Positions 19,361 through 35,152 of a DNA stretch of 44,501 nt are shown here, piece by piece. The DNA is from Roseicyclus mahoneyensis (GTDB lineage Bacteria > Pseudomonadota > Alphaproteobacteria > Rhodobacterales > Rhodobacteraceae). The notes under the pieces were generated by a model that did not search any database, was not told where the DNA came from, and saw only the letters and a program-made list of their open reading frames with translations. The stretch's first letter is position 1; each line of letters begins with the position of its first letter. A program made the translations under genes and the position numbers. The stretch covers positions 397,907 to 442,407 of the forward strand of contig NZ_QGGW01000002.1 of assembly GCF_003148775.1 (NCBI RefSeq), in the 5' to 3' direction.

Positions 19361-20947
19361 TCAGCCTCTCGCGTCTTGGCGGATCATGTCGGCGGCCTTT
19401 TCGCCGATCATGATCGCTGCGGCATTGGTGTTGGAGGAAATCACGGTCGGCATGATGGAATTGTCCACCACACGCAGCCGGTCGATCCCGTTGAAGCGCA
19501 GGCGGGTGTCGACCACCGCCGCCGGGTCCGACCCCATGCGGCAGGTCCCTGCGCAATGGTGCGAGGTCTTGGAATGTTCGCAGATGAAATCGAAATACTC
19601 CTGATCGGTCCGCACATCCGGTCCCGGCAGGCGTTCGGCCTTGACGAATTTGGCAAGTGGCGTCTGTCCCATGATCTCCTGCGTCAGCTTGAGCCCGCGA
19701 ATGGACATCTCGCGGTCGCGGGCATCTTGCAGGTAGTTGGGGTCGATCAGCGGGGCCTTGGCCGGATCGCTGGACGCCAGCCGGACAGTGCCGCGTGACC
19801 GGGGGCGCAGGTAGCAGGAATTCAGCGTCACGCCCCCTTGCGGCATCACCGCCACGCCCTTTTCGATCCCGGTGCCAAGGCCAAGATGAAACTGGATGTC
19901 GGGGGATCGGGCATCGGAATCAGCATACCAGAACCCGCCGGTTTCAAACAGCGAGGACGCCACCGGCCCCTTGCGCGTCAACAGATACTGCAGCCCCGCC
20001 AGCGCGGCCATGTGCGGTTTCGCGTAGCGATCATAGCTGTGCGGCCCGCTGAGTTCCACGATGCAATAGAGGTCGAGGTGGTCTTGCAGGTTCGCCCCCA
20101 CCTGCGGCTGGTCCAGCACGATGGGGATGCCCAGATCTTGCAGATGATCTGCTGGCCCGATCCCGGACAGCTGCAACAGGCGCGGCGAACCGATGGCACC
20201 CGAAGCCAAGAGCACCTCCTGCGTCGCCGTGATCCGCGTGCCGTCCACCAGCTCCACCCCCGTTGCGCGACCGGCCTCCACCGTGATCCGCCGCACCTGC
20301 GCGCCGGTCCGCAGCGTCAGGTTCGCGCGGCCAAGGTTCGGCGTCACATAGGCCATCGCGGCAGATGACCGGCGCGCGTGCCTTTGCGTCAGCTGGTAAA
20401 AGGCCACGCCGTCCTGCGTTTCGCCGGTCACGTCCATGTTCCGCGGGATGCCCAGCGCCTTCGCCGCTTCGAAATAGGCCTCGCAGATGGGCAAGGGGGC
20501 GCTGGGTTGTGATACGCCCATTGGGCCCCCCTTGCCGTGGTAGCGGTTGTCGTGGGTGTCGTTATCCTCGGCCTTGCGGAAATAGGGCAGCACGTCCTCG
20601 TAGCCCCAGCCGTCACAGCCCATCTGCCGCCATTCGTCGTAATCTTGCGCATTTCCCCGCGTGTAGATCTGCGCGTTGATCGCCGATCCGCCGCCCATCA
20701 CCTTGGCCTGTGTGTAGTTGAAGACGCGCCCCTTCATGTGCCGCTGCGCCACTGTCTCCCAACCCCAGGAGCCGATGCCCTTGGTCATCTTGGCGAAGCC
20801 TGCGGGCAGGTGATAGAACGGATGCCGGTCGCGCCCGCCCGCCTCCAGCAGCAGGACACGCGTGGCCGGGTCCTCGGACAGCCGGCCCGCAAGCACGCAG
20901 CCCGCGCTGCCGCCGCCGATGATGATGTAGTCGTAGCCTTCGGCCAT
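19361..20947 (-). CDS. GMC-family FAD oxidoreductase (choline/alcohol dehydrogenase-like)
   Basis: A 528-residue flavoenzyme. The FAD Rossmann motif is GGGSAG (11-16), with a conserved KVMGGGSAINAQIYTRG ADP-binding stretch and ASGAIGSPRLLQLSGIGP (second GMC signature). The C-terminal domain holds the catalytic pair H464 (HHCAGTCRMG) and N508 (SSNTNAAAIMIGEKAAD). This subfamily oxidises primary or secondary alcohols and passes electrons to quinone or oxygen. There is no signal peptide, so it acts in the cytoplasm or at the membrane. The ATG at 20947 has GGGAG upstream and follows the SDR gene by 9 bases. Specific choline use is unlikely given the neighbours. Confidence 0.93.
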   Translation of the reverse strand: MAEGYDYIIIGGGSAGCVLAGRLSEDPATRVLLLEAGGRDRHPFYHLPAGFAKMTKGIGSWGWETVAQRHMKGRVFNYTQAKVMGGGSAINAQIYTRGNAQDYDEWRQMGCDGWGYEDVLPYFRKAEDNDTHDNRYHGKGGPMGVSQPSAPLPICEAYFEAAKALGIPRNMDVTGETQDGVAFYQLTQRHARRSSAAMAYVTPNLGRANLTLRTGAQVRRITVEAGRATGVELVDGTRITATQEVLLASGAIGSPRLLQLSGIGPADHLQDLGIPIVLDQPQVGANLQDHLDLYCIVELSGPHSYDRYAKPHMAALAGLQYLLTRKGPVASSLFETGGFWYADSDARSPDIQFHLGLGTGIEKGVAVMPQGGVTLNSCYLRPRSRGTVRLASSDPAKAPLIDPNYLQDARDREMSIRGLKLTQEIMGQTPLAKFVKAERLPGPDVRTDQEYFDFICEHSKTSHHCAGTCRMGSDPAAVVDTRLRFNGIDRLRVVDNSIMPTVISSNTNAAAIMIGEKAADMIRQDARG

Positions 20948-20956: not shown

Positions 20957-21697
20957 TCAGAGCCGGTGGATGGACAGCCCGCCATCGACGGGGATGACGG
21001 TACCGGTGGCAAAGGCGAAATCGCCGCGCACTAGCGGCACGATGGTCTGCGCGATATCAGCGGGCCTACCCCAGCGGCGGGCCGGCACAAGGCCGTCGGC
21101 GATGCGCGCGTCATAGCGGTCGCGCACGGGCGCCGTCATCGGTGTGGCGATGATGCCGGGGCGAATGTCGAAGACTCCGATACCATCAGGCGCAAGGCGG
21201 GCCGCAAAGGCCTGCGCCATCATCGCCGCGCCTGACTTGGAGATGCAGTATTCCGCCCGGTCGGGCGAGACCATGCTGGCGCTGACCGAGGTGATGAAAC
21301 AGATCGCGCGATAGGGATCGGCTGGCAGGGCAAGCATCCGCCGCGCCGCTTCTTGTGCAAGAAACATGGCCCCGCGCAGGTTGACGCTGATGCAGCGGTC
21401 GAAGCTCTCGACGCTCATGTCCAGCAGATCGCCCCGCACCATCGCCGGAACGCCCGCATTAGACACAAGCGTCGTCACCGGCCCTACCGCGTCCATCAAT
21501 GCGGCGACTGACGAGACATCCGCCAGATCATGCCGGTGATAGGTCGCCCCCGGCATCGCGGCCAGTGCGGCCTGAACCACCTCTGAGTCGGGTACGACCT
21601 CGGCGGCCAGCGCCACCTGCCACCCCGCCGTGTGCAGGGCCTCGGCGATGCCCAGCCCGATGCCTTGTTGTCCCCCAGTGATCAACGCGCGTTTCAT
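20957..21697 (-). CDS. Short-chain dehydrogenase/reductase (3-oxoacyl-reductase-like)
   Basis: A 246-residue classical SDR. The cofactor motif TGGQQGIG (7-14), NAG (80-82), the catalytic Ser region ITSVSAS (135-141) and YCISK (Y150, K154) are all intact; GDFAFATGTVIPVDGGLSIHRL is the standard C-terminus. AAEVVPDSE after the second strand lacks the Arg that marks NADPH preference, so the cofactor is uncertain. Its ATG overlaps the TGA of the upstream GMC gene by four bases (ATGA), showing translational coupling. It probably oxidises or reduces a hydroxyl on the pathway substrate. Confidence 0.93.
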   Translation of the reverse strand: MKRALITGGQQGIGLGIAEALHTAGWQVALAAEVVPDSEVVQAALAAMPGATYHRHDLADVSSVAALMDAVGPVTTLVSNAGVPAMVRGDLLDMSVESFDRCISVNLRGAMFLAQEAARRMLALPADPYRAICFITSVSASMVSPDRAEYCISKSGAAMMAQAFAARLAPDGIGVFDIRPGIIATPMTAPVRDRYDARIADGLVPARRWGRPADIAQTIVPLVRGDFAFATGTVIPVDGGLSIHRL

Positions 21698-23169
21698 GTC
21701 GCCTCCTGTGCGATCCGGTCGGCCTGCCTCAGCGCCAGCGCCGCGATGGTCAGCGACGGGTTCACCGCCGCGGATGTCGGCAACAGGGAGGCGTCGCAGA
21801 TCCAGAGATTTGGGTGATCGTGGCAGCGCCCGAACGTGTTCGTTACGCTTGCCGTCGGATCATCGCCCAGCCTCGCCGTCCCGCATTGATGCGAGGGTGT
21901 CGTACGGTCAAAGGCCTTGGCCAGAACAACCGGAAATCCCGCGCGGCGCAGCGCCTGTTTCAAGGCGGCCACCAAGGCCAGATGCGCATCCCAGTTCGAC
22001 CGCCGCCAATCGAGCACGATGGCGTCACCCTTTACCGTCACGCGGCTTTCGGGATCGGGCAGATCCTCGGACATGGCGTAGAAGTCGATGGCACGGTCTG
22101 CGATCACTTTTGCCACAGGCCCTGGCAACCCGGCCTGCGCCGCAAGGATGGGTGCCGAAACCCGACCCAGAAGCTGCACATTGCCCAGCGGTTCGCCCTG
22201 CGGCCCGCCGGTCAGGTACCAGTCGTTGATCTGCAGCGTCTTTTGATAGACCGAGCGGTTCCGCCGCCCCGACAGCGCCAGCACGGCCGAGGCGTTGTGG
22301 TTCATGAAGTTCCGCCCGACCTGATCGGAGCCGTTCGCCACCCCCCGCTGGTGGTCCGCATCGGCCGAGCGCAGGAGCAGCGCCGCCGTCATCACCGCGC
22401 CCGCCGCCAGCACGACGCGCGGCGCCGTCATCGGCCCCGCACTGGTCAGCAGGCGGGTGATCCGCCCCCCCTCCGTCTCCAGCCGTTCCACCGTCACGCC
22501 GGTCTGCAGCTGCACATTGGGGTGACGCAAAGCCAGCGCCAGCGCCGCCGTTTCGGCATCGAGCTTGCCGCCCGTGGTGTCGGGAAACGCGTCCCAAGGC
22601 GTCGCTGACCGCGCCAGCCAACGGTCGAGGTCCACGGCCAGCGGCAGCGGCGCGGGGTGAAGGCCCGCGGCCCGCAATCGCCGGTCCAGATCGGCAATCG
22701 CCGGTTCGTGCGGCACCGGACCGAAGGGATAGGGCGCGCCATGGGCGGGCTCGGTGGGGTCAGGGCCCGCATCGCCCCGTACCTGATAAAGCGCCTCGGC
22801 CCGGTCATACCAGGGTGCAAGCGTGGCATAGGGAAAGGGCCAGCCGGGCGTCGTGCCGCCGATGTGCCGGATCGGCGCGAAATCGGCTTCGCGGTAGCGC
22901 AGCATCACGGCGCCGTAGAACTTTGAATTGCCGCCAACGAAGGCATAGTTGCCGGGGTTGAACGGCACGCCCTCGGGCGTCAGCCAATTCTCGCGGGGCC
23001 GGAAATGCCCGCGCCCGAAGATCGCCACCGGGTCGCGCGCCTCAGGGCAATCGGCCAGACGTTCCCCCCGCTCGAGGATGAGCACGCGCATTCCCGACGG
23101 CGCCAGCCCGGCGGCCAGCGTCGCCCCGCCCATGCCGGAGCCGACGATGATGATGTCGGCGTCGCTCAT
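21694..23169 (-). CDS. GMC-family oxidoreductase, distant sugar-oxidase-like subgroup
   Basis: A 491-residue protein and the first gene of the 23.2-15.6 kb operon. It has the FAD motif VGSGMGGATLA (8-18), LERGERL, and the C-terminal GMC catalytic pair H427 (SHQCGTARLG) and N470 (AAVNPSLTI). The GGNSKFYGAVMLRYREADF region is characteristic of the subgroup that includes pyranose 2-oxidase-like and glucoside 3-dehydrogenase-type enzymes rather than choline dehydrogenase. No partner Gluconate_2-dh3 subunit gene is present. The start at 23169 is set by AAGGA 10 bases upstream; the frame extends to 23229 across the operator. The inferred activity is oxidation of a ring hydroxyl of a sugar or cyclitol. 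Confidence 0.88.
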   Translation of the reverse strand: MSDADIIIVGSGMGGATLAAGLAPSGMRVLILERGERLADCPEARDPVAIFGRGHFRPRENWLTPEGVPFNPGNYAFVGGNSKFYGAVMLRYREADFAPIRHIGGTTPGWPFPYATLAPWYDRAEALYQVRGDAGPDPTEPAHGAPYPFGPVPHEPAIADLDRRLRAAGLHPAPLPLAVDLDRWLARSATPWDAFPDTTGGKLDAETAALALALRHPNVQLQTGVTVERLETEGGRITRLLTSAGPMTAPRVVLAAGAVMTAALLLRSADADHQRGVANGSDQVGRNFMNHNASAVLALSGRRNRSVYQKTLQINDWYLTGGPQGEPLGNVQLLGRVSAPILAAQAGLPGPVAKVIADRAIDFYAMSEDLPDPESRVTVKGDAIVLDWRRSNWDAHLALVAALKQALRRAGFPVVLAKAFDRTTPSHQCGTARLGDDPTASVTNTFGRCHDHPNLWICDASLLPTSAAVNPSLTIAALALRQADRIAQEAT

Positions 23170-23206
23170 CCGCCCACGATCCTTTTCACTGTCTCTCTCA
23201 TAACTT

Positions 23207-23220
23207 TTGGATCGTTCCAA
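23207..23220. promoter_or_regulatory. LacI-type operator O1 upstream of the GMC operon
   Basis: TTGGATCGTTCCAA is a 14-bp near-perfect palindrome centred on CG, 38 bases upstream of the GMC start. Read on the minus strand it lies between CTGGAA (23221-23226) and TTATGA, spaced 17 bases, a possible weak -35/-10 pair. The reverse complement of the same 14-mer occurs at 33810-33823, and both are followed on the plus strand by TTCC. Confidence 0.65.
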
Positions 23221-23235
23221 TTCCAGCATAAAGAG

Positions 23236-23264
23236 ACGCCCGCTGCCATCCGGCGCGCGGGCGT
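23236..23264 (-). terminator. Terminator of the sugar ABC transporter operon
   Basis: On the minus strand ACGCCCGC and GCGGGCGT form a perfect 8-bp stem with a 13-base loop, beginning 4 bases after the malK stop codon and followed by CTCTTTAT. It separates the transporter operon from the GMC operon promoter. Confidence 0.7.
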
Positions 23265-23268
23265 GGTG

Positions 23269-24384
23269 TCAGGCGATGCGATCCTCGGTCTTGGGATCGA
23301 ACAAGACGGCCTTGTCCATGTTCACCGCGAAATCAAACGGCTGGCCCGAGCGCACATCTGCATCGGCCCGCATCCGCGCGATGCAATCCTTGCCGGCCAG
23401 CGTCATGGTCACGAAGGTATCGGCCCCCGCCGGTTCCGTCACGCCCACCGTGTTCGTCAGCGCCTGAATGTTGCGCGCGTTGCGGTCGGCGCCTTCGGGG
23501 TCGGTGATCGCCTCGGGGCGGATGCCAAGGATCACCTCGCGCCCCTTGTAGGCGGCATAGGCGGCAGACGCATTATCGATCCTCAGTGCCCGCTCTTGCC
23601 CGTCGGCGCCGGTGGTCAGCGCGTGTAGCGCGCCGTTGCGATCCTCAAGCCTGACGGTCAGCACATTCATCGCAGGGCTGCCCATGAAGGTTGCCACGAA
23701 CAGGTTGGCGGGGTTGTCGTAGATCTCCTTGGGTGTTCCCAACTGCTGAACATAGCCGTTGTACATTACCGCAATCCGCGTGCTCAGCGTCATCGCCTCG
23801 ATCTGGTCGTGGGTGACGTAGACGATGGTGGTGCCCAGCTTCTGGTGCAGCTTCTTGATCTCGGTCCGCATGTCGACCCGCAGCTTGGCGTCAAGGTTCG
23901 ACAGCGGTTCGTCGAACAAGAACACATCGGGGTTGCGCACCAGCGCCCGGCCCATCGCGACCCGCTGGCGCTGGCCGCCCGACAATTGGCCGGGCTTGCG
24001 CGTCAGCAGGTTTTCGATCTGCAGCAGCTTGGCCACGTCGGCCATCGCCTTGTCGCGCTCGGGCTTGGGCGTGCCATGCATCTCGAGGCCAAAGGTGATG
24101 TTCTGGCCAACTGTCATGTTGGGGTAGAGCGCGTAGGACTGGAATACCATCGCGATGTTGCGCCGCGACGGGTGGACGCCGTTCATCACCCGGTCCTTGA
24201 TCTTGATCTCGCCTGAGGAAATTCCCTCCAGCCCCGCGATCATGTTCAGAAGGGTGGACTTGCCGCAGCCGGACGGGCCGACCAGCACCAGAAACTCGCC
24301 TTCCTCGACCGAGATGTCGACCTTGTGCAGAACTTCGACCGCGCCGTAGGACTTGGTGACGTTGTTGATATCCAGAAAGCCCAT
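23269..24384 (-). CDS. Sugar ABC transporter ATP-binding protein (MalK/UgpC type)
   Basis: A 371-residue ATPase energising the neighbouring permeases. Walker A is GPSGCGKST (36-44), the signature LSGGQRQR, Walker [17 protein letters not shown] and switch H in VTHDQ. The C-terminal third (about 235-371) is the OB-fold (TOBE) regulatory domain of CUT1 ATPases, with GIRPEAI. The start at 24384 (MGFLDINN) is preceded by GGAGGA; the frame runs upstream to 24453 without similarity. It is the last gene of the four-gene transporter operon and ends at a strong hairpin. Identification as CUT1 importer ATPase is firm. Confidence 0.96.
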
Positions 24385-24408
24385 GGCTTCAATCCTCCGG
24401 ATTGCCCG

Positions 24409-24459
24409 GCGCGGTGCAGGTGCTCCGCGCGTTCGGAATTTGAAACGCGCCACTGGCGC
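24409..24459 (-). other. Two small hairpins between malG-like and malK-like genes
   Basis: GCGCGG/CCGCGC (24409-24414 and 24425-24430) and GCGCC-ACT-GGCGC (24447-24459) can form stems in the about 100-base spacer between permease and ATPase. They could adjust the expression ratio inside the operon. No long T-run follows. Confidence 0.35.
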
Positions 24460-24487
24460 CTTTAATTTTGTTACACAAAACCATTCC

Positions 24488-25369
24488 TTACCCCTTGACC
24501 GAGCCGGCCATCAGACCGCGTACGAAATAGCGACCAGCGACGATGTAGACGAGAAGCGTGGGGGCGGCGGCCATGATGGCGCCTGCGAAATGCACGTTGT
24601 ATTCGCGCACCCCCGTGGACGAGTTGACAAGGTTGTTCAGCGCCACCGTCATGGGCGCACCACCCCCGCTGGCAAAGGAAGCCCCGAACAGGAAGTCGTT
24701 CCAGATGTTGGTGAACTGCCAGATGAAGCTGACCGCGATGATCGGCCCCGACGACGGCAACATGATCCGCCAGAAGATCTGAAAGAACCCCGCCCCGTCG
24801 ATTTGCGCCGCCCGCACCAGTTCCGTCGGAAAGGCAGCATAGTAGTTGCGGAAATAAAGCGTGGTGAACCCGATCCCGTAGACGAAATGCACCAAGATCA
24901 GCCCCGGCGTGGTGCCCGCAATGTCGAGTATCCCAAGGATGCGCGCCATCGGGATCAGCACGATCTGGAACGGGATGAAGCACGAAAACAGCAAGAGCCC
25001 GAAGATGATCGTTGCACCCCGGAAATGCCACTTGGTCAGGACATATCCGTTCAGCGCACCCACGATGGTGGACAGCAGCACGGCGGGCACAGCCATCACG
25101 ATCGAATTGATGAAATAGGGGCGCAGACCGGTTGGCTCGACCCCGATCTGCGCCGTCGACCAGGCTGACAGCCAAGGTGCGATGGTCCAGTCACGGGGCA
25201 GGGCGATCATGTTGCCGCCCGTGATCTCGGACAGAGGCTTGAGCGAGTTGATCAGCATGATGCCGAAGGGCAGCAGGTAGAACAGCGCGAAGAGGATCAA
25301 GATCAGGTAGATCAGCACCCTCGCAAAGCCGGAGGACCGCATGGCGTTTTCAGTCGAGGCAGCAGCCAT
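24488..25369 (-). CDS. Sugar ABC transporter permease (MalG/GtsC type)
   Basis: A 293-residue inner-membrane protein with six predicted helices beginning with [22 protein letters not shown]. The EAA loop that contacts the ATPase is [23 protein letters not shown], and the C-terminus [15 protein letters not shown] is typical of this family. The ATG at 25369 overlaps the last base of the upstream permease stop (TGATG); a GTG at 25372 is the alternative. With the adjoining permease it forms the CUT1 translocation pore for a mono- or disaccharide. Confidence 0.95.
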
Positions 25370-26268
25370 CACTTCTTCTCCCGCAGTTCGGCGTAGAGGT
25401 AGGGTACCATGATCGCGGCAATGGTCATCAGCATGATGACCGCCGAGGCAGCACCGATGCCCATCTGGTTGCGCGTGAAGGTGTAGGAATACATGAAGGT
25501 CGCGGGCAGCGCCGTGGCATTGCCCGGCCCGCCGCCGGTCAGGGCGATGACAAGGTCATAGGACTTGATCGCCAGATGGCTCAGGATCACGAAGGCCGAC
25601 AAAAAGGCCGGGCGCAATTGCGGCAGGATGATCCGGCGATACATCTGGAAATTCGATGCGCCATCCATCTGCGCGGCCTTGAGGATCTCGTTGTCGATGC
25701 CGCGCAGGCCGGCAAGGAACATCGCCATGACAAAGCCCGAGGATTGCCAGACCGCGGCGATGACGATGGTGTAGATCGCCATCTCGCGGTCCTTGATCCA
25801 GTTGAAGGTGAAACTTTCCCACCCCCAGAGGTTCATCGTGTTCTCAAGCCCGATGGCGGGGTCGAGCATCCATTTCCACGCCGTGCCGGTCACGATGAAG
25901 GACAGCGCCATGGGGTAAAGGAAGATCGGGCGCAGCACGCCTTCGCCGCGAATCTTCTGGTCGAGCAAGATGGCCAGCGTCAGGCCGATCAGCGTACAGA
26001 TGATGATGTAGAGCGAGGCGAAGATCGCAAGATTGGTTAGCGCGATGTTCCATTCACGCACGCGGAAAAGGCGTTCGTAGTTGTCCCAGCCCACCCAGTT
26101 GTAGGACGGCAGCATCCGGCTGTCGGTGAAGCTGAGGTAGATCGTGAAAGCGATGAAGCCGTAGACGAAGATCAGCATCACGGCGAGGGATGGCGACAGC
26201 ACCAGCTTGGGCAGCCATGTCTGAAGGCGTGTGCGGAAATCCACGCCCGTGTCGGTCGTTGCGGCCAT
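25369..26268 (-). CDS. Sugar ABC transporter permease (MalF/GtsB type)
   Basis: A 299-residue inner-membrane protein with six predicted helices, opening with LVLSPSLAVMLIFVYGFIAFTIYLSFTDS. The EAA motif is DNEILKAAQMDGASNFQMYRRIILP. The stretch RNWVGWDNYERLFRV-like at about 55-70 follows the first helix, as in glucose/mannose-type permeases. GGAGGGGG precedes the start. It overlaps the second permease gene by one base, so translation is coupled. It pairs with the downstream permease, the MalK-type ATPase and the binding protein encoded just upstream. Confidence 0.95.
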   Translation of the reverse strand: MAATTDTGVDFRTRLQTWLPKLVLSPSLAVMLIFVYGFIAFTIYLSFTDSRMLPSYNWVGWDNYERLFRVREWNIALTNLAIFASLYIIICTLIGLTLAILLDQKIRGEGVLRPIFLYPMALSFIVTGTAWKWMLDPAIGLENTMNLWGWESFTFNWIKDREMAIYTIVIAAVWQSSGFVMAMFLAGLRGIDNEILKAAQMDGASNFQMYRRIILPQLRPAFLSAFVILSHLAIKSYDLVIALTGGGPGNATALPATFMYSYTFTRNQMGIGAASAVIMLMTIAAIMVPYLYAELREKK

Positions 26269-26322
26269 GGCCCCCTCCCCCCTTTTTGGTGACTGACCCG
26301 AGACCCGCAGGCCCGGAATATG

Positions 26323-26351
26323 GACCGGCCCTGCGCGCGGCAGGGCCGGTC
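26323..26351 (-). other. Intercistronic hairpin after the sugar-binding-protein gene
   Basis: GACCGGCCCTGC-GCGCG-GCAGGGCCGGTC is a perfect 12-bp stem with a five-base loop, starting 14 bases beyond the binding-protein stop and before the first permease. Such structures usually protect the 3' end of the binding-protein mRNA and terminate part of the transcripts, giving excess binding protein over permease. Confidence 0.65.
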
Positions 26352-26364
26352 GCGTCTGCGCAGG

Positions 26365-27615
26365 TTACTGCGCGATCTCGACGGCGGTGACGAGTTCGGC
26401 TGCCGCGGTCTCGGCGTCGTACTCGCCGTTGAAATGCGCGGTGATCACGTCATACATCGCGTTCTGGATCGACGGGTTGTTGGCGTGGCCATGCGCCATC
26501 GACCCGAACAGGCCACCGCTTGCCGCGGCTTCGGCCAGTTGCGCCATGCCAAGCTGTCCGCAGGCGTCAAAGGCATCCGAAGGGATGTCGGTGCGCGCGG
26601 GCACCGAGCCCTTGACGAGGTTGAAGGTCACCTGGAACTCGGGGCTCATCACGGCGCTGGCCATGGCCAACTGCGAGGCCTGAGCCGAGGCATCCGACAC
26701 GTTGAACATGGCGAACTGGTCCGAGTTGAAGGTCACGGTGCCTTCGGTGCCCGGCACGCGGAAGCACTGGAACTCGTTGCCGGCCGTCATGCCCGCATTG
26801 ACGAATTCGCCCTTGGCCCAATCGCCCATGATCTGGAACAGCGCCTCGCCGTTGATGACCATGGCCGACGCGAGGTTCCAGTCGCGGCCCGAGAAGTTGT
26901 CATCGACGAACCCGCGCAGCGTTTCCATACGCTGGAACGCCTCGACCATGGTGGCCGATCCCAGCGCCTCAGGGTCCAGATCGACCATCGACGCCTGATA
27001 GAACTCCGGACTGCCGACGCCCATCACCATGGATTCGAACACCGTCGCATCCTGCCAGGCTTGGCCACCATGGGCGAGCGCGGTGTAGCCCGCATCCTGC
27101 GCGGCTTGCATCGCGGCGACGAATTCGTCCCAGCTGGTCGGCTGTTCGATGCCCAGTTCCGCCATCAGGGCGGTGTTGGCCCAGACCCAGTTGGTCGAGT
27201 GAACGTTGACGGGTGCGGCAACCCAGCTGCCCTCATAGGTCGAAAACGCCTGAAGGGCGGCGGGCACCACATCGGCCCAGCCCTGTTCGGCGGCCAGCGC
27301 ATCAAGGTTGGCCAGCGCGCCCTCGGCCGCCCAATCCTGAATCGAGAAGCCCAGCATCTGCACGGCGGTCGGCGGGTTGCCTGCGGTGACGCGGGCGCGC
27401 AGCACGGTCATGGCATCCGAACCGCCGCCACCTGCGACCGGCATGTCCTGCCAGCCGATGCCACCCGCGGCCAGCGTGTCGCGCAGCGTGCCCACGGCGG
27501 CAGCTTCGCCGCCCGAAGTCCACCAATGCAGCACTTCCACCTCTTGCGCTGTGACCGTCGCGGTCGACAGCGCCAGCACAGCGGCCGACATGTAGAGTTT
27601 CTTCATCATGGTCAT
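26365..27615 (-). CDS. Extracellular sugar-binding protein (glucose/mannose-type, GtsA-like)
   Basis: A 416-residue periplasmic receptor. Residues 1-23 are a Sec signal peptide (MTMMKKLY, hydrophobic core, TVTAQ cleavage region). The mature protein begins [17 protein letters not shown] and includes [38 protein letters not shown] and MGDWAKGEF, a pattern found in CUT1 glucose/mannose-binding proteins (GtsA and thermophilic glucose-binding proteins). A glucose-like sugar or glucoside ligand is likely but not proven. The ATG at 27615 has GGAGGA 8 bases upstream. It is the first gene of the transporter operon, under a LacI-type operator, and faces a divergent LacI gene. Confidence 0.94.
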
Positions 27616-27663
27616 GGTTAGGTTCCTCCCTTGGTGACCAACGCCCTTGACGGGCTCTGCAGA

Positions 27664-27694
27664 ATTAAAACGTTATAAATCCTTCATCCGTCAA
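27664..27694 (-). promoter_or_regulatory. Candidate promoter of the sugar transporter operon
   Basis: On the minus strand TTGACG (27694-27689) and TTTAAT (27669-27664) are 19 bases apart, 48 bases before the binding-protein start. The LacI-type palindrome centred at 27671/27672 fills the spacer and touches the -10, as expected for repression. Confidence 0.45.
27665..27678. promoter_or_regulatory. LacI-type operator in the transporter promoter
   Basis: TTAAAACGTTATAA is a palindrome centred on CG with 6 of 7 positions matching between halves. It lies within the transporter promoter and is paired with a related site at 27794-27807 near the divergent LacI gene. Confidence 0.55.
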
Positions 27695-27696
27695 CT

Positions 27697-27727
27697 GGAA
27701 ATTTCCTGTTCAAGCTCACGAAATTTC
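27697..27727. promoter_or_regulatory. Paired AAATTT palindromes in the transporter/LacI intergenic region
   Basis: GGAAATTTCC (27697-27706) and GAAATTTC (27720-27727) are perfect palindromes with centres 22 bases apart, two helical turns, just upstream of the transporter -35. They do not match the LacI-type sites and could bind an additional regulator. Confidence 0.35.
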
Positions 27728-27744
27728 AACAAACTTCCTGCAAA

Positions 27745-27773
27745 CGCAGCATTTTTCCGCGCCGCAGCATTTT
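27745..27773 (+). repeat. Direct repeat CGCAGCATTTT
   Basis: The 11-mer CGCAGCATTTT occurs at 27745-27755 and 27763-27773 (18 bases apart, start to start) between the divergent transporter and LacI genes. Tandem sites of this kind often bind an activator, but chance in an AT-rich spacer cannot be excluded. Confidence 0.35.
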
Positions 27774-27793
27774 CAGATGCAACGGAATTCTTG

Positions 27794-27807
27794 TTGAAAC
27801 GTTTGAA
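27794..27807. promoter_or_regulatory. LacI-type operator upstream of the divergent LacI gene
   Basis: TTGAAACGTTTGAA is centred on CG with 6 of 7 matching positions between halves. Its left half (TTGAAA) could serve as the -35 of the LacI gene at 27855, with CAATAT at 27816-27821 as the -10, so autorepression is likely. Confidence 0.6.
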
Positions 27808-27854
27808 ATGTCGGTCAATATGACCGCGACGGAAATAAGCTGCCGCAGTGACCC

Positions 27855-28883
27855 ATGACCCATGACAGCCCCCTTGCCGCCCTGCATGGGCAGGGCGAAA
27901 GGCCCACGCTGCGCACCTTGGCTCACGTCACGGGGTTCTCGGTGGCGACCGTGTCGCGCGCCTTGGCCGATGATCCGCGAATCGCCGTCAAGACGCGCGC
28001 GACGGTCGCTGCCGCTGCCGAACGGCTGGGCTACATCCCCGACCGTGCCGCGCGCCGCCTGCGCACGGGCCGCACGCAGGTCATCTCGCTCCTGCTCAAC
28101 ACGGAACACGAGTTTCTTGGCTTCACCCACGAGTTCCTGACCGGCATTACCGAGACGCTTGTCGGCACCGGCTATTCCGTGACGGTCGTGCCCGACCAGC
28201 CCGGCGACGACCGGCTTGCGCCCGTCCGCACGATCCTGCGCAACAACCTCGCCGATGGGTTGCTGTTCACCCGGACCGAGGCCTTCGACCCCCGCGTCCG
28301 CCTGTTGATGGAGGCCGATTTCCCCTTCGTCAGCCATGGCCGCACGGAATTCAGCGCGCCGCATCCATGGGTGGATTTCGACAACGAGGCCTTTGCCCGC
28401 GCCGCCGTCGCCCATCTGGCCGCCAAAGGGCGCAGGCGGATCTGCATGGTCCTGCCGGGTGACCAGTTCACCTTCACCCAGCATCTGCGCTACGGCTTCG
28501 TCTCGGCCGCCCGCGCGGCAGGGATCTACCATGAGATCGTTCCGGGCGTGACCCTCGACAGCCCGACCGCCGCAATTGCCGCCGCCCTGACCGCTGCTCG
28601 CCACGGCCCGAACCCGCCAGACGGGTATGTCTGCGTCGGCGAGGTGACGGCGCTGGTGGCGCTGGCCGCGCTGGCCGATACCGGCGCGGTGCATGGGATC
28701 GATGCCGATATCGTGGCAAAACGCGCCTCGCCGATCTTCGACAACATCCGCCCCCGCATCGACACCGTATTCGAGGATCTGCGCGCCACCGGTCGAGCCA
28801 TGGCGGAAATGCTGCTGGGCCGCATGGCGGGTGCGCCGCCCGAGACGCTCAACCGCCTGTTCCAGCCCGATCCGGTGGCGTGA
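27855..28883 (+). CDS. LacI-family regulator of the sugar transporter operon
   Basis: A 342-residue regulator. The helix-turn-helix is at 18-37 (RPTLRTLAHVTGFSVATVSRAL) and the hinge helix near PDRAARRLRTG, followed by the sugar-sensing domain (HEFLGFTHEFLTGITETL, WVDFDNEAFARAAVAHLAAKG, DGYVCVGEVTALVAL). The TVSRAL recognition helix is commonly paired with AAACGTTT-type operators, which match the two sites in the divergent intergenic region. It is therefore the likely repressor of the binding protein-permease-ATPase operon and of itself. Its stop lies 2 bases from that of the aldehyde dehydrogenase gene running the other way. Confidence 0.94.
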   Translation: MTHDSPLAALHGQGERPTLRTLAHVTGFSVATVSRALADDPRIAVKTRATVAAAAERLGYIPDRAARRLRTGRTQVISLLLNTEHEFLGFTHEFLTGITETLVGTGYSVTVVPDQPGDDRLAPVRTILRNNLADGLLFTRTEAFDPRVRLLMEADFPFVSHGRTEFSAPHPWVDFDNEAFARAAVAHLAAKGRRRICMVLPGDQFTFTQHLRYGFVSAARAAGIYHEIVPGVTLDSPTAAIAAALTAARHGPNPPDGYVCVGEVTALVALAALADTGAVHGIDADIVAKRASPIFDNIRPRIDTVFEDLRATGRAMAEMLLGRMAGAPPETLNRLFQPDPVA

Positions 28884-28885
28884 GA

Positions 28886-30406
28886 TCATGCGACCCATGT
28901 CCCCCGGGTCTGCCCGATGCGCATCTGCACGGTCTTGACCTCCAGAAACTCCTCCAGCCCGTAGCGGCCCAGTTCGCGGCCCTGACCGCTTTCCTTGAAC
29001 CCGCCGAAGGGCAGTTCCGCGAACCCGTCCATCCAGGTGTTGGTCCAGACCGTTCCCGCCTGCACCTTGCGCGCGAAATCGAGGCAGGTGGAGACATCGC
29101 GGCTCCAGACCCCCGCCGAAAGCCCGTAGGCGGCAGAATTGGCCAGCGCGATGGCCTCGTCGAACGTGCGGAAGGTCAGCACCGACAGGACCGGGCCGAA
29201 CACCTCCTCGCGGGCGATGGCCATGTCGGGGGTGACCCCGGTCACGATGGTCGGCTGGTAGAACTGCCCGCCAAGCCCGCCCACCTCAAGCGCGGCGCCG
29301 CCCAAGGCCACATGCGCGCCCGCCGCCACCGCGCCCCGCACATAGCCGTCGATCTTGGCCAGATGCTCAGAGCTGATGATCGCGCCCACCTGCGTGCGCG
29401 GGTCCAGCGGATCGCCAAAGGGCACGCGGCGGCTCAGCGCCGCGACCTTGGCCACCAGCGCGTCCGCCACATCCGCATGCACGATGATCCGGCTGCCCGA
29501 ATTGCAGCATTCGCCCGCGTTGAAATAGACGCCAAAGGCGATGGCATCGGCCGCCTGATCCAGATCCGCATCGGGGAACACGACCTGCGGGTTCTTGCCG
29601 CCCAGTTCGAGCGACACCTTTTTCAGCGTCGCACTGGCCGCTGCGGCTATCCGCTTGCCCACGCCGGTCGATCCGGTGAAGGACACCATGTCCACACGGG
29701 GATCGGTCGACAGCACCGCGCCCACCGGGTCGCCGTAGCCCAGCACGATGTTGCACACGCCTGCGGGCAGCCCAGATTCTTCTAGCAGATGCCCGAGCAT
29801 CACGGTGGTGCCCGGCGTCAGTTCCGAGGGTTTCACCACCGCCGTGCAGCCCGCAGCAAGCGCAAAGGGCAGTTTTTGCGACACGATGAGAAACGGGAAA
29901 TTCCACGGGCAGATCAGCGACACGACCCCGATGGGTTCCTTCAGCACCAGCCCCAGCATGTCGGGGCCAAGGCTGTTGTGGCTATCGCCATGCATCGTAC
30001 GCGCCAGCGCAGCCGCATAGCGCCACAGATCCGCCGCGCCCTCGATCTCGGCCATGGCCTGCGTGATCGGCTTGCCCGATTCCAGCACTTCGTGACGGGC
30101 AATCGCCGCCCGGTCGCGGTCGATCAGATCGGCGACGCGCAGGAGCAATGTCGCCCTGTCCTTGCCCGACGACCGCGACCATGCGCCCGCATCGAATGCA
30201 GCGCGTGCCGCCGCAATCGCGGCTTCGGCCTCTGGCCTGCCACCCTTGGCCGCGACCGACACTGCGACCCCATGCGCAGGCGAGCGGCGTTCGCTGGTCG
30301 CGCCATCGGCGCTGTCCAGCCATACACCGCCGATCCAGTGCTGCAGGGCGACCGGCGCGTCGGGCAACGCGGCGTTGGTGGCGGGAATGACGGTCAGGTC
30401 AGGCAT
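28886..30406 (-). CDS. Aldehyde dehydrogenase (betaine-aldehyde-dehydrogenase-like)
   Basis: A 506-residue NAD(P)-dependent aldehyde dehydrogenase. Key residues are N169 (ICPWNFP), the cofactor loop FTGSTGVG, E267 (SLELGGKNPQ) and nucleophile C301 in GECCNSGSR. Late motifs EEVFGPVLSV and FGGFKESGQGRELG are intact. It oxidises an aldehyde to an acid in the cytoplasm. It is the last gene of the operon Gfo/Idh, CoA-transferase, enoyl-CoA hydratase, aldehyde dehydrogenase, with a 3-base gap to the gene before it, and so could supply the acid that the CoA-transferase activates. The exact aldehyde is unknown; sequence does not separate glycine-betaine from other alkanal substrates. Confidence 0.93.
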   Translation of the reverse strand: MPDLTVIPATNAALPDAPVALQHWIGGVWLDSADGATSERRSPAHGVAVSVAAKGGRPEAEAAIAAARAAFDAGAWSRSSGKDRATLLLRVADLIDRDRAAIARHEVLESGKPITQAMAEIEGAADLWRYAAALARTMHGDSHNSLGPDMLGLVLKEPIGVVSLICPWNFPFLIVSQKLPFALAAGCTAVVKPSELTPGTTVMLGHLLEESGLPAGVCNIVLGYGDPVGAVLSTDPRVDMVSFTGSTGVGKRIAAAASATLKKVSLELGGKNPQVVFPDADLDQAADAIAFGVYFNAGECCNSGSRIIVHADVADALVAKVAALSRRVPFGDPLDPRTQVGAIISSEHLAKIDGYVRGAVAAGAHVALGGAALEVGGLGGQFYQPTIVTGVTPDMAIAREEVFGPVLSVLTFRTFDEAIALANSAAYGLSAGVWSRDVSTCLDFARKVQAGTVWTNTWMDGFAELPFGGFKESGQGRELGRYGLEEFLEVKTVQMRIGQTRGTWVA

Positions 30407-30409
30407 GGG

Positions 30410-31177
30410 TCATGTTCCGGGAAATTCGGGTTTGCGTTTGGCGGCGAATGCCGCGACGCCCTCGGCCTTGTCGGCGCTGGCGCCGATCATGCCCGCGCCC
30501 AGCGCCTCGATCATGGCGGATGGGTCTTCGCCGACGCCTGCATGGATCTGGTATTTCGCGACCTCGACCGCGCGGGGCGAGGCGTTGGCCATGCCCGCCG
30601 CGATCCCTTCGGCGACAGTCAGCGGGTCGTCGGCCACCTCGGCGACAAAGCCCAAGGCATGGGCGCGGCCTGCGTCCAGCCGCCGCCCGAACAGCGCCAT
30701 TTCCTTCAAGACAGGTTCCGGCAGCAGCCGCGCCAGACGCTGCGTGCCGGACCAACCCGGCACAATGCCCACCTGCGCCTCGGGCAGGGCAAGCGTTGCC
30801 CCCGGCGCCATCACCCGGATGTCGCAGCACGCCGCCAGTTCCAGCCCGCCGCCAAAGGCATGGGCCTGCAGGACGGCGATGGTGGGCTTCGACAGCCGCG
30901 CCAGCCGGTCAAACACCCGATGCCCCTCGCGCACCCAGTTTCGCGCGAATTCGAACGGCGACAGCGGTGCCCATTCGGCAATGTCGGCACCTGCGCAAAA
31001 GGCGCGGTCCCCAGTCGCTTGGACAAGCACGCACATCACATCGGCGCTGCGCTCCAGCGTAGCGCAATGCGCGTCCAACTGCGCCAGCATCGCGGGGGTG
31101 AAGGCGTTCAGCTTGGCCGGATTGTCCAGCGTCAGCCGCGCCAGCGCCCCTTCGACGGACAGATGCACCCCGCTCAC
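30410..31177 (-). CDS. Enoyl-CoA hydratase/isomerase family protein
   Basis: A 255-residue crotonase-fold protein. The CoA-ester oxyanion-hole region is DRAFCAGADI (57-66) and AFGGGLELAACCDI (107-120). Both acidic residues of true hydratases are present: E113 (GGGLELA) and E133 (LPEAQVGIVPG). The start is the GTG at 31177, whose GTGA overlaps the CoA-transferase stop by four bases. It probably hydrates the enoyl-CoA produced after CoA activation in this operon, though crotonase members also catalyse isomerisation, dehalogenation or retro-Claisen reactions. Confidence 0.93.
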   Translation of the reverse strand: MSGVHLSVEGALARLTLDNPAKLNAFTPAMLAQLDAHCATLERSADVMCVLVQATGDRAFCAGADIAEWAPLSPFEFARNWVREGHRVFDRLARLSKPTIAVLQAHAFGGGLELAACCDIRVMAPGATLALPEAQVGIVPGWSGTQRLARLLPEPVLKEMALFGRRLDAGRAHALGFVAEVADDPLTVAEGIAAGMANASPRAVEVAKYQIHAGVGEDPSAMIEALGAGMIGASADKAEGVAAFAAKRKPEFPGT

Positions 31178-32745
31178 AGGGTCAGCCCCATGGGCGCATC
31201 GCGCAGGATCGACAGGGGCAGGGCCGTGGCGTTCTCGGCCACGGCAACACGGCCATGGCTTGCCGCCACGATGTCGCGCGCGGGGTCCATCCCCGGCATG
31301 ATCTCGGTCGCCACAAGGCCCTGAGCGGTCAACCGGATCACGCAGCGCTCGGTGACATAGATCACATCCTGCCCCTGCTCGACCGCGCGTGCCCCTGAGA
31401 AGGTCACGTGTTCGACCTGTTCCACCATCTTGGTGAATTTGCCGGGCTTGGCGACCCTGAGGCCGGTGTCGCTCAAGTCCAGCTCCGCCCCGGCCTCGAA
31501 ATAGCCGGAAAACACGATCTTTTTCGCATGCGCCGTGATGTCGACGAAGCCACCGCAGCCCGCGGTCAGATAGGGCTTTTTCCCCAGCTTCGAGACATTC
31601 ACATTCCCTTCCACATCGACCTCAAGGAAGGAGAGGAAGGTCAGGTCAAAGCCGCCGCCCTGAAAATAGGTGAACTGGTTGGGCGAGGGGACGAAGGCAT
31701 CGGCATTCGACGCGCAGCCAAAGGCAAAGCCGGTCAGCGGCATGCCCCCAACGGCACCCTGCTCGATCGCCCATGTAACCGCCTGCGCATGACCTTCTTC
31801 CAGAAGAATGCGCGGTACCATGGCGGAAATGCCGAAGCCCAGATTGGCTGTCTGGCCGCGCCGCAATTCCATCGCCGCGCGCCGCGCGATGATCTTTTCG
31901 ACGCTATGTTCTGCCAGCGAAAAACTGTCCCATGGCCGCATGATCTCGCCCGAGATGGCCGGATCATAGAGTGTTTCGGTCGTCTGCTTCTGGTCGGGGT
32001 CCACCACGATCAGGTCCACCAGATGCCCCGGCACATGCACGTCATGCGGGCGCAAGGACCCTGCTGCCGTCATCCGCTTGACCTGCGCAATGATCAGCCC
32101 GCCGTGGTTGCGCACGGCAATGGCCTGATCCAGCGCGCCCAGATAGGCGCCCTCGTGCTCATAGGTCAGGTTGCCGCGCTCATCGGCGGTGGTGGCGCGG
32201 ATGATGGCGATCTGCGGCACGATGTTGGGGAAATGCAGCCACGTCTCGCCTCCGAATTCCTGTCGCTCCACGATGGGCGCCGCAGCCCCCCGCGCATTCA
32301 TGGCACAGCCCTCGCGGACTGGATCGACGAAGGTCTGAAGCCCCACCTTTGTGAAAACTCCTGCCCGCCGTGCCGCCACGTCGCGGTGCATGTCGAACAT
32401 GATGCCGGATGGCACATTGTATGCCGCGACGCGGTCCTCTACGACCATTTTCCAGATCTCGGGCATCGGCAACGACGAGGGTCCGGACGGATAGCTGCCC
32501 GCGATGATGCGGTCCAGCAGCCCGTCCTTGGCGATGTGATCCACGCCTTTCACGCCATACATGTCCCCCGCCGCGATCGGGTGCAGCGTGGTCAGCCCGC
32601 GGGGATGCCCCTCGGTCGCGAACCTCTCGCCCAGCGCCTTCAGCACCGCATCGGGGCAGCCCAAAGCCGAGGACGACGACACCGTGACGACCGCCCCGTC
32701 AGGGATGCGCGCGACAGCCTCGGTGGCGGTGACATGCTTGCCCAT
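31174..32745 (-). CDS. Acyl-CoA:carboxylate CoA-transferase (YdiF/family I)
   Basis: A 523-residue fused family I CoA-transferase with alpha-like and beta-like halves in one chain. The predicted catalytic glutamate that forms the CoA thioester is E328 in WAIEQGAVGGMP. GFGISAMVPRIL precedes it, FQGGGFDLTFLSFLEVD follows, and SSSSALGCPDAVLKALGERF lies in the N-terminal half. Length fits YdiF-type enzymes (about 520). It converts a carboxylic acid to its CoA ester using acetyl-CoA or a similar donor. It follows the Gfo/Idh gene by 4 bases and is coupled to the enoyl-CoA hydratase by GTGA. Confidence 0.93.
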   Translation of the reverse strand: MGKHVTATEAVARIPDGAVVTVSSSSALGCPDAVLKALGERFATEGHPRGLTTLHPIAAGDMYGVKGVDHIAKDGLLDRIIAGSYPSGPSSLPMPEIWKMVVEDRVAAYNVPSGIMFDMHRDVAARRAGVFTKVGLQTFVDPVREGCAMNARGAAAPIVERQEFGGETWLHFPNIVPQIAIIRATTADERGNLTYEHEGAYLGALDQAIAVRNHGGLIIAQVKRMTAAGSLRPHDVHVPGHLVDLIVVDPDQKQTTETLYDPAISGEIMRPWDSFSLAEHSVEKIIARRAAMELRRGQTANLGFGISAMVPRILLEEGHAQAVTWAIEQGAVGGMPLTGFAFGCASNADAFVPSPNQFTYFQGGGFDLTFLSFLEVDVEGNVNVSKLGKKPYLTAGCGGFVDITAHAKKIVFSGYFEAGAELDLSDTGLRVAKPGKFTKMVEQVEHVTFSGARAVEQGQDVIYVTERCVIRLTAQGLVATEIMPGMDPARDIVAASHGRVAVAENATALPLSILRDAPMGLTL

Positions 32746-32749
32746 GGCG

Positions 32750-33748
32750 TCAGATGCCCCCGTAATTCACGGCCGTGCGCTGCCCGGTCGCGGCGGCATC
32801 GGCCACCGCGGCGGCGACAGCCAGCGATTTGACCCCGTCGATGCCATCGGCCGCAGGCCGCCCGTTGCCCGCGCAAGCATCGTTGAAAAGCCCCACCGCG
32901 CGCCCGTAGAGGTTGTGATCGGAGAAACTCAACGCCTCTTCCCCCGACCCCGTGCGCAGCAAGATCTCGCCCACTGGCGCTTGCGTCATCACATTTCGCG
33001 CGACGATCGACCCTTTGGTGCCATGCAGCTCGAACCCGGTCTTGGCGAAAGCATGGGTAAAGCTCTCATGCGCCATGACCATCGCACCCGACGGCATGGT
33101 CCAGACCGACATGCAGCTGTCCTCCACCCCCTTGCCCATGCCCGACGCACCGGACATCGCCACGACCTCCACCGGGTCCTCACCCAGATGGAAGCGCACG
33201 GTATCCGCGTCATGCACCACGATATCGGGGATCACCCCGCCGCCAGCGGCGGGGTTGTCGATGCGCCAACCCCGAAGGAAGGGCGGCAGATGGACAGCAT
33301 GGAACACCCGCACACTCAACACATCGCCGATGCGCCCAGCCTGCAACGCCGCGCGGATCGCCAGATGCGAGCCTGCGTTGCGCAGATGGTGGTTGGTGGC
33401 AAAGACCACGCCAGCGGTCTGTGCCGCGCGCACCATGGTCACGGCATCGCCCACGGTCATCGCCAAAGGCTTTTCGCACAGCACATGCTTGCCCGCCGCG
33501 ATGGCGGCCATGGCTTGTACGAAATGCTTTTCATTGGTGGTGGAGATATATACGGCCTCCAGATCATCGGCGGCCAGCAGCGCCTCCAGATCGTCCGAGC
33601 CTCGCGGGATGCCGTGCTCCGCCGCATAGGCCGCCGCCCGCGCGCCCGAGGAACTCAGGACCGAGCGGATATCGCCGCCCGCTCCGCGGATGGCCCCGAT
33701 CATGTGGTTTGCGGCGATGTTGCTCGCGCCGATCAATCCCCAACGCAT
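32750..33748 (-). CDS. Gfo/Idh/MocA-family NAD(P)-dependent oxidoreductase
   Basis: A 332-residue dehydrogenase of sugar, cyclitol or sugar-derivative hydroxyls. The N-terminal Rossmann domain (LIGASNIAANH, then HVLCEKPLAM with the conserved EKP) is followed by the alpha/beta catalytic domain with GGGVIPDIVVHDADTVRF, the place of the usual D-x3-H-x2-D catalytic triplet. It is the first gene of the four-gene CoA-activation operon, and the TTGGAACGATCCAA operator lies 62 bases upstream of its start. Its presence upstream of acyl-CoA enzymes is uncommon and suggests that the pathway first oxidises a polyhydroxylated or cyclic substrate. Substrate is not predictable from sequence alone. Confidence 0.9.
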   Translation of the reverse strand: MRWGLIGASNIAANHMIGAIRGAGGDIRSVLSSSGARAAAYAAEHGIPRGSDDLEALLAADDLEAVYISTTNEKHFVQAMAAIAAGKHVLCEKPLAMTVGDAVTMVRAAQTAGVVFATNHHLRNAGSHLAIRAALQAGRIGDVLSVRVFHAVHLPPFLRGWRIDNPAAGGGVIPDIVVHDADTVRFHLGEDPVEVVAMSGASGMGKGVEDSCMSVWTMPSGAMVMAHESFTHAFAKTGFELHGTKGSIVARNVMTQAPVGEILLRTGSGEEALSFSDHNLYGRAVGLFNDACAGNGRPAADGIDGVKSLAVAAAVADAAATGQRTAVNYGGI

Positions 33749-33809
33749 CCGGGTCCCTCCCCTTGCTTCTGACCACCCGACTCGGGGCGATCACTTGTCT
33801 ACGGGCTTT

Positions 33810-33835
33810 TTGGAACGATCCAATTCCCCTGTCAA
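33810..33835. promoter_or_regulatory. LacI-type operator O2 and overlapping -35 upstream of the Gfo/Idh operon
   Basis: TTGGAACGATCCAA (33810-33823) is the exact reverse complement of the O1 14-mer at 23207-23220. On the minus strand a consensus TTGACA (33835-33830) lies 6 bases upstream of it, so a repressor here would block the promoter; the -10 is not clear. The TTGACA is itself inside CCCTGT-CA-ACAGGG (33827-33840), a second inverted repeat. Confidence 0.65.
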
Positions 33836-33874
33836 CAGGGTCCGGGCAGACTTTCGGCCACAGGCGATGCAGTA

Positions 33875-35152
33875 TCAGGCGACGCGCGCACCGGGCGGGA
33901 TGGTCGGCGGGGCGGCGTTCAGGGTGTCGATGGCGAACCCGGCGGCCGCCTTGTATCCGGCCATGTAATCGCGCCGCTCGGTCTCGGGCAGGATGCTCTC
34001 GATGTCCTCGAACACGCCGCCGCACCGTTCGTCGAGCAAGCTCAGAAGGCCGAACGGCCCGGCGCCCCGGTTACGCAACACCAGTTCCGACACCGGACCA
34101 CACAATTGCGCATCATAGGCCGCAAGCGCATCGGGTGTCGCACCATGCGCCAGCATCTTGGCCCCGATCACGCGGGCATCCACGATCGCCTGGCTCGCCC
34201 CGTTCGACCCGGTCGGATACATCGCATGCGCCGCATCGCCCATCAGCGCCACCTGGCCATCTACCCATGTCGCCACCGGATCGCGGTCGATCATCGGGTT
34301 TTCATAGGCGCAATCGGCGGCTTTCAGCATCGCGGGCACGTCGAGCCAGTCGTAGCGGAAGCCCTCAAAATGATGAACGAAATCAGCGACCTCCACGGGG
34401 CGGAACCATGCGTCATCGGGCCAACCGCCGGAATTGTCGACCGTCACCTCGGCGATCCAGTTGACCAGCGCGGTGCCGTCGGGCCCCACCGGCGTGATCG
34501 GGTAGATCACCATCCGGTGCCGGTGCGTTCCCAAACCCACAAAGGACGACGCGGTCCGCAACGGCCTTGCCCGGACCGTGCCGCGCCACATCACTGCGCC
34601 GCCCCAGTTGATCGGCGGCTGATCGGGGTGCATCTGCGCGCGGATGCGCGAATGGATGCCGTCCGCGCCCAGCAGCAGCGCGCCCTTGACCTGCGCGGTC
34701 ATGCCATCGGCACGCGACACCTCGGCAATCACACCGCCCGCGTCTTGGCGATAGCCGGTCACCCGCGCCCCTAGCGTGATGCACTCCCGCCCCGCCCGGT
34801 CCAGCAGGCGGTGATAAAGCAGCATGTGAAAACGTCCGCGATGCACGGCATATTGCGGCCAGTGATAGCCCGCAGCCCGCCCGCGCGGCTCGGCATGCAC
34901 CTCGCGCCCGTTCAAGCCCACCAGCGCCCATTCCAACGCGGGCAGGCCGACAGTGTTCAGATCGCTCTCGGTGATGCCAAGGTCGATCGGTTCGCGCACG
35001 GCATTGGGTTGCAGGTTGATCCCCACCCCCAGCGGCTTCATCTCGCGGCTGGATTCGAAGACATGAAACGGCACGCCGATCTGGTGCAGCGTCAGTGCCA
35101 TGGTCAGGCCGGCGATACCGCCGCCCAAGATCAGGACCGGGCCGACCGTCAT
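33875..35152 (-). CDS. FAD-dependent monooxygenase (PhzS/salicylate-hydroxylase-like)
   Basis: A 425-residue class A flavoprotein. FAD motifs are ILGGGIAGL (near residue 8), GADGIHSR and LMGDAAHAMYPTGSNGASQAIVDA, the order seen in aromatic hydroxylases. The N-terminal LGVGINLQPNAVREPIDLGI and AYKAAAGF C-terminal stretch resemble the flavin-dependent oxidoreductase group that includes PhzS. It inserts oxygen into an aromatic or enol-like substrate with NAD(P)H. Its ATG overlaps the SDR stop by four bases (ATGA), so the two are one unit. The 126-base gap to the Gfo/Idh operon with O2 suggests a separate promoter downstream. Confidence 0.88.
   Translation of the reverse strand: MTVGPVLILGGGIAGLTMALTLHQIGVPFHVFESSREMKPLGVGINLQPNAVREPIDLGITESDLNTVGLPALEWALVGLNGREVHAEPRGRAAGYHWPQYAVHRGRFHMLLYHRLLDRAGRECITLGARVTGYRQDAGGVIAEVSRADGMTAQVKGALLLGADGIHSRIRAQMHPDQPPINWGGAVMWRGTVRARPLRTASSFVGLGTHRHRMVIYPITPVGPDGTALVNWIAEVTVDNSGGWPDDAWFRPVEVADFVHHFEGFRYDWLDVPAMLKAADCAYENPMIDRDPVATWVDGQVALMGDAAHAMYPTGSNGASQAIVDARVIGAKMLAHGATPDALAAYDAQLCGPVSELVLRNRGAGPFGLLSLLDERCGGVFEDIESILPETERRDYMAGYKAAAGFAIDTLNAAPPTIPPGARVA

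Follow-up and report, generated by a model that had tools for sequence, protein, structure and literature searches.

The window analysed here (44,501 nucleotides of Roseicyclus mahoneyensis DNA) contains two copies of a palindromic 14-mer, TTGGAWCGWTCCAA, at 23207-23220 and 33810-33823, 10,603 bp apart, and the locus raises the question of whether one regulator acts at both, which regulator this would be, and what the genes behind the two sites have in common. The initial annotation had described the 14-mers as exact reverse complements of each other lying shortly before first start codons. Both points were confirmed, with 37 bases separating one site from the start of a GMC oxidoreductase gene at 23169 and 61 bases separating the other from the start of a Gfo/Idh/MocA oxidoreductase (Gfo) gene at 33748. 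These distances fall within the 30-140 bp upstream of the target start where LacI-family operators mostly lie (some relatives of the locus go down to 11), and both sites are even palindromes with a central CG, which is typical of LacI-family sites (Ravcheev et al. 2014, PMC4052901). The flanks described with them, TTTT before and TTCC after, are common to both window sites but are not generally kept in relatives.

The window has two exact copies of the 14-mer, and 100 dinucleotide shuffles gave none (mean 0.00, maximum 0). With up to three mismatches allowed, the window count was 5 against a chance mean of 4.0, which is no excess, and therefore the exact match alone is informative. Across the genome (4.03 Mb in 32 contigs), the exact 14-mer occurred only at the two places in the window, each before a first gene, and allowing one mismatch added 1 further place. 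The absence of a third copy, previously judged by eye, thus extended to the whole genome, and unrelated sites do not often carry the motif there. A wider regulon in this genome, reached through a looser motif, was considered and rejected, as the 12-mer core TGGAWCGWTCCA has 4 additional exact places and each of them is coding sequence within a long ORF (428-881 amino acids, GC3 of 0.78-0.89). Non-coding sites in the genome were limited to two, both in the cluster described below.

The genes behind the two sites had been taken for unrelated sets. According to Pfam assignments, those behind the 33810-33823 site, all on the minus strand, encode the Gfo protein (32750-33748), which is near 1,5-anhydro-D-fructose reductase (PDB 4koa, 2e-113; 2glx, 1e-112), a CoA-transferase (31174-32745), an enoyl-CoA hydratase (ECH) family protein of the crotonase type (30410-31177), and an aldehyde dehydrogenase (ALDH; 28886-30406). 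A transporter follows on the same strand, comprising a sugar-binding protein (26365-27615; PDB 4r2b, 8e-162; 5dvf, 1e-112), two ABC permeases (25369-26268 and 24488-25372), and a MalK-type ABC ATPase (23269-24453). Behind the 23207-23220 site, again on the minus strand, are genes for GMC oxidoreductase 1 (21694-23169, start taken from orthologues), an SDR dehydrogenase (20957-21697), GMC oxidoreductase 2 (19361-20947), a DUF993 protein (18196-19359; nearest PDB entry 4dnh, uncharacterised), a LacI-family regulator (LacIA, 17173-18186), a DUF4147/MOFRL glycerate kinase (ORF listed as 15944-17452, true start probably near 17170), and a Dabb-domain protein (15632-15940). An alternative, longer GMC ORF from 23229 would contain the 23207 site. 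The GMC orthologue of one relative (G369), aligned over 491 of 511 residues, begins after that genome's own site, and therefore 23169 is the likely GMC start. The only cluster gene on the plus strand encodes a second LacI-family regulator (LacIB, 27855-28883; Pfam), which lies between the aldehyde dehydrogenase and the divergent transporter genes. In relatives the same genes mostly lay side by side in one orientation, individual genes being absent or substituted; in most relatives LacIB was not observed, and hardly any space separates the ATPase gene from the GMC gene. Judged by this gene order, the Gfo and GMC gene sets belong to a single conserved cluster, and the shared site would therefore join parts of one presumed pathway. 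The proposal of one regulon accordingly stood with respect to the shared conserved site and fell with respect to the unrelatedness of the two gene sets. Elsewhere in the window, genes for an FAD-binding hydroxylase and a protocatechuate 3,4-dioxygenase beta-type protein (41471-43789) probably belong to an unrelated aromatic pathway.

Conservation was assessed in a family sample of 394 genomes, with LacIA called at E up to 1e-60. The exact 14-mer was present in 34 of these genomes at 40 places (9 places for a reversed control pattern), and LacIA in 54, of which 15 had both (one-sided Fisher p 4.5e-6) and 49 had a CoA-transferase orthologue. The other 39 LacIA genomes lacked the exact 14-mer, and the readable promoters among them hold variant sites. 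Eighteen of the 40 exact places were in promoters of this cluster and 22 were elsewhere, many of them coding; among the loci of the L004-L032 series without promoters of this cluster (n = 18), the site was inside an ORF of at least 350 amino acids in 13. From the LacIA genomes, 46 first-gene promoters were readable (G285, G380, and the masked G118 were dropped, and G378 was taken from another locus). The core TGGAWCGWTCCA was present with at most one mismatch in all 46, exactly in 41, and in two copies in 35. Exact cores numbered 63 in 15,978 bp of promoter windows (46 windows, here with the masked G118 and without G378) versus 16 in the other 1.19 Mb fetched. These 16 comprised 4 before GMC genes, 1 before the G378 Gfo gene, 9 from six genomes at up to about 3.5 kb past LacIA, and 2 others, so that 14 were in or beside the cluster. 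Operators beyond LacIA (L164:7011-10307, L124:16127, L129:19597-19660, L133:2402-2503, L169:6915, and L170:9441) had near them genes for a further Gfo/Idh protein with an FAD oxidoreductase, or for a PfkB kinase (Pfam, four proteins), and these genes are possible extra regulon members.

A second set was obtained by a CoA-transferase alignment search of named genomes, of which the best 80 of 526 loci were used; it overlaps with the family set (e.g., L212 is G378 and L213 is G230), so the 46 and the 80 are not independent. In these best 80 loci, the core was found with at most one mismatch in 77 promoters, exactly in 66, and in two copies in 63. Carriers included Rhizobium straminoryzae, Ciceribacter, Oricola, Roseibium, Labrenzia, and Hongsoonwoonella. 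The three loci without a site at up to one mismatch (two Amaricoccus and one Paracoccus) came from genomes that all have LacIA; one half-site was altered in Amaricoccus, and the Paracoccus promoter had two-mismatch sites. Footprinting of orthologous promoters, which the initial annotation had proposed along with the genome-wide scan, therefore bore the motif out, and operator and regulator were kept together across genomes. On this comparative evidence, the palindrome is a real and strongly conserved putative operator of the LacI type.

The promoter before the Gfo gene offers a view of how such an operator could work. In the window, a TTGACA read in the sequence (33830-33835, minus strand) is a putative -35 element, with the predicted operator at 33810-33823 in the spacer behind it. 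This promoter has a single site and no operator 2. Its -10 side (CAAAAA) is weak, and a strict sigma-70 consensus scan of 23100-34000 found no promoter; the -10 element is therefore uncertain. Many relatives share a common order, in which operator 1 follows TTGAC after a few bases and operator 2 comes next, beyond an AT-rich stretch. In 27 of the 46 promoters, TTGAC was no more than 22 bp upstream of operator 1, versus 1.5% per 24 nt elsewhere, and the spacing of paired operators was 20-25 bp in 31 of 35 pairs and 13, 31, 32, or 34 bp in the rest. Spacings in both the 35 family pairs and the 63 second-set pairs were near 13, 22, or 32 bp, the values at which those of LacI-family sites peak (PMC4052901). 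The sites might instead serve activation, given that some LacI-family proteins are thought to be dual and PckR is predicted to be so in portions of the same study. Nevertheless, operator 1 follows TTGAC by a few bases in the 27 promoters, filling the presumed spacer between -35 and -10, and operator 2 lies near the presumed start point, and operators so placed should therefore block polymerase. We regard activation as improbable, and repression as the preferred role.

LacIA (minus strand) is predicted to be the repressor. It has an N-terminal LacI helix-turn-helix (PF00356) and a periplasmic-binding-protein-like domain (PF00532/PF13377/PF13407), the make-up of the LacI family, and its recognition helix reads SKSTVSLVL. 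The KSTVSL helix was present in 51 of the 53 family LacIA proteins that have an N-terminus, and among 48 second-set loci the helix was KSTVSL in 43, KSTVSN in 3, KSSVSL in 1, and unrelated in 1, a weaker match. Eleven LacI helix-turn-helix domains are encoded in the R. mahoneyensis genome, and only that of LacIA has leucine at the helix position, which is arginine in nine and lysine in one. We take this position to be one that contacts DNA in Lac repressor. LacIA was found in 62 of the 66 second-set genomes checked (15 of 16 and 47 of 50), the check covering all but 14 of the 80. The four genomes without it at the cut-offs were three metagenome-assembled genomes and Jiella, which has a LacI protein of 38% identity (helix SKSSVSLVL) whose gene immediately precedes Gfo, with an exact-core site in the intervening DNA. 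In a class sample of 289 genomes, LacIA was detected in 2, both of the window's family, while rhizobial genomes reached through the loci do have it. Aligned with the dimeric Lac repressor core, LacIA extends only about one residue past the point where that core ends, and it therefore appears to lack the C-terminal tetramerisation helix, for which reason DNA looping across 10.6 kb is not favoured. Changes in helix and operator were also compared. The two Amaricoccus loci (L245:7930-7975 and L264:7925-7970) have one half-site changed (TTGTCACG) and a LacIA helix with asparagine in place of leucine. G152 LacIA has the same asparagine yet an ordinary core; covariation, which Amaricoccus fits and G152 contradicts, was therefore not taken as proof.

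The other regulator of the cluster could be thought to bind TTGGAWCGWTCCAA, as the LacIB gene is located between both operators and the internal operator is confined to LacIB genomes (see below). Against this, the cluster DNA retrieved from 37 of the 46 operator-bearing family genomes showed no LacIB (a few clusters being cut by contig ends), its helix is of the typical arginine type, and palindromes of another sequence lie beside it. Nine of the 54 LacIA genomes showed a LacIB gene in the cluster DNA retrieved from them. The gap upstream of the transporter holds AT-rich palindromes in 6 of these 9, and genomes without LacIB showed no palindromes of that kind. In the window, they are the probable LacIB operators TTCAAACGTTTCAA (27794-27807, in the gap between LacIB and the transporter) and TTATAACGTTTTAA (27665-27678), both imperfect palindromes with 6 of 7 pairs. 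Binding of LacIB to the TTGGAWCGWTCCAA sites is accordingly very unlikely, and LacIB probably controls the transporter between both sites through a different, AT-rich palindrome. LacIA remains the best candidate binder of TTGGAWCGWTCCAA, as suggested by its co-occurrence with the operator, its recognition helix, and the missing LacIB in the clusters of most relatives.

The second predicted operator (23207-23220), an exact palindrome located in the 99 bp that separate the GMC gene from the gene preceding it, has a narrower distribution. We compared 114 rows from both genome sets, repeats included. An operator between the preceding gene and GMC was present in 15, all with gaps of 79-157 bp; among the rows without one, 95 had gaps below 40 bp and 4 had longer gaps. 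All 15 rows came from LacIB genomes (the LacIB of G369 being on locus L040), and other LacIB genomes, G030, G034, G047, G250, and G382 among them, had no operator before GMC. The named rows with this operator (n = 11) were eight Roseicyclus/Roseibacterium, two Rhodobacterales bacterium, and one Roseibium (L250). By this distribution, the second site is a lineage feature, a predicted extra promoter before the GMC gene in some LacIB genomes only. It is possible, from the same distribution, that the lower half of the cluster gained its own LacIA-controlled promoter where LacIB split the run and took the transporter.

A third proposal is that a global LacI-family regulator governs the cluster through a shared motif. 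GapR of Rhodobacteraceae, predicted in sections of PMC4052901 to control zwf-pgl-pgi, would be a model for it, and one relative (G067) has 18 sites genome-wide at up to one mismatch, among them an exact one before phosphoglucose isomerase (L176:5120-5133) and one that, by eye, is near a transketolase-like gene, a pattern that a broader regulator with a similar motif might produce. However, the 16 G067 loci inspected, which cover 15 of the 18 places, contained no LacI gene, and in the R. mahoneyensis genome the site occurs before genes of this cluster only, without the genome-wide spread of the GapR type. According to the same sections of PMC4052901, GapR, although likewise a LacI-family protein of Rhodobacteraceae, is global, is encoded by a usually unlinked gene, and has a 20-bp consensus, whereas the LacIA regulon would be local and linked. 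Global control of this kind is thus hardly to be expected. At L004:415-1514, a different LacI, 36% identical to LacIA and with the helix SRATASLVV, adjoins TTGGATCGATCCAA; among the motif loci searched for LacI genes (the 3-kb loci L003-L032, and L171-L176), L004 was the only one with such a gene, which is suggestive only. Lastly, coincidence of the two palindromes, for which it could be said that the motif, at three mismatches, does not exceed its frequency in shuffled sequence, was already refuted by the zero exact matches in 100 shuffles and by conservation across genera and into rhizobia, and its probability is negligible.

The predicted system resembles known ones. Like the local LacI-family sugar regulons surveyed by Ravcheev et al. 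(2014, PMC4052901), it has an even palindrome with a central CG, tandem sites at about 22 bp, positions near the start codon, and a regulator gene within a carbohydrate cluster. RafR of Enterobacteriales and ScrR of Burkholderiales are given there as having double sites only, 21-22 bp apart. Such pairs also occur in most relatives of the cluster, whereas the lineages differ and that of the window has single sites at two promoters. LacIA, its motif, and its cluster were not found among the LacI regulons in the main-text portions of that study, and a literature search on DUF993, the motif letters, and the cluster, in which most subscription journals were outside the scope, returned no matching paper or title. 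Most likely, the comparative data describe an ordinary kind of sugar-repressor switch, of which this would be a new and clearly conserved example in alphaproteobacteria.

The reading that we prefer, with a probability of roughly 0.87, is that both palindromes are operators of LacIA, with repression lifted by a sugar or intermediate so that both halves of the cluster are switched together. From the observed conservation, positions, co-occurrence, and architecture, we infer binding, repression, and induction by such a signal in the following form. When no inducing sugar is present, LacIA dimers would occupy the spacer between -35 and -10 and, in most relatives, also the second operator about 22 bp downstream, and RNA polymerase would be blocked. 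A sugar or intermediate tied to the cluster's transporter would free LacIA, and its release would turn on the Gfo-CoA-transferase-ECH-ALDH and GMC-SDR-GMC-DUF993-LacI-kinase parts together. The LacIA gene itself sits near the end of the cluster that it would control. One upstream operator region would serve the whole run in most relatives. In the lineage to which the window belongs, the run is broken by LacIB, to which control of the transporter has probably passed, and the GMC genes would be transcribed from a separate promoter that carries the second LacIA operator.

As to the substrate, the closest solved structures of the Gfo protein are 1,5-anhydro-D-fructose reductases (4koa and 2glx), and those of the sugar-binding protein are the sugar-binding structures 4r2b and 5dvf. 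No recognised Gfo gene preceded the CoA-transferase in 15 of 48 relatives (G285 left out). The gene content is consistent with a route for a sugar or a polyol, an anhydro sugar being the first guess. The Gfo product is closely similar to the 1,5-anhydro-D-fructose reductase of Sinorhizobium morelense (Kuhn et al. 2006, as reported in passages of the review PMC12441222), where the route is given as reduction to anhydromannitol followed by hydroxylation to mannose. That route leaves the other genes of this cluster unexplained, and the comparison with that strain covered the enzyme. Tentatively, and with considerable doubt, the cluster may encode an aerobic pathway not described so far, which would act on a 1,5-anhydro sugar (candidates are 1,5-anhydrofructose, anhydromannitol, and anhydroglucitol) and differ from the reductase-then-hydroxylation route reported for Sinorhizobium. 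Control in one lineage would then be split between LacIA for the enzymes and LacIB for uptake, each sensing a different compound, and the operator before GMC would have arisen after LacIB divided the ancestral run. If true, the anhydro-sugar reading would be useful, as an oxidative 1,5-anhydroglucitol pathway is stated in passages of the same review (PMC12441222) not to have been described.

Our analysis thus yields a precise predicted assignment of regulator, operator, and cluster for a carbohydrate cluster that is widespread in alphaproteobacteria, and LacIA may provide a ready sensor for finding its substrate. It further suggests how two LacI regulators can divide a cluster between them and how, in some clusters so divided, an additional operator can arise.
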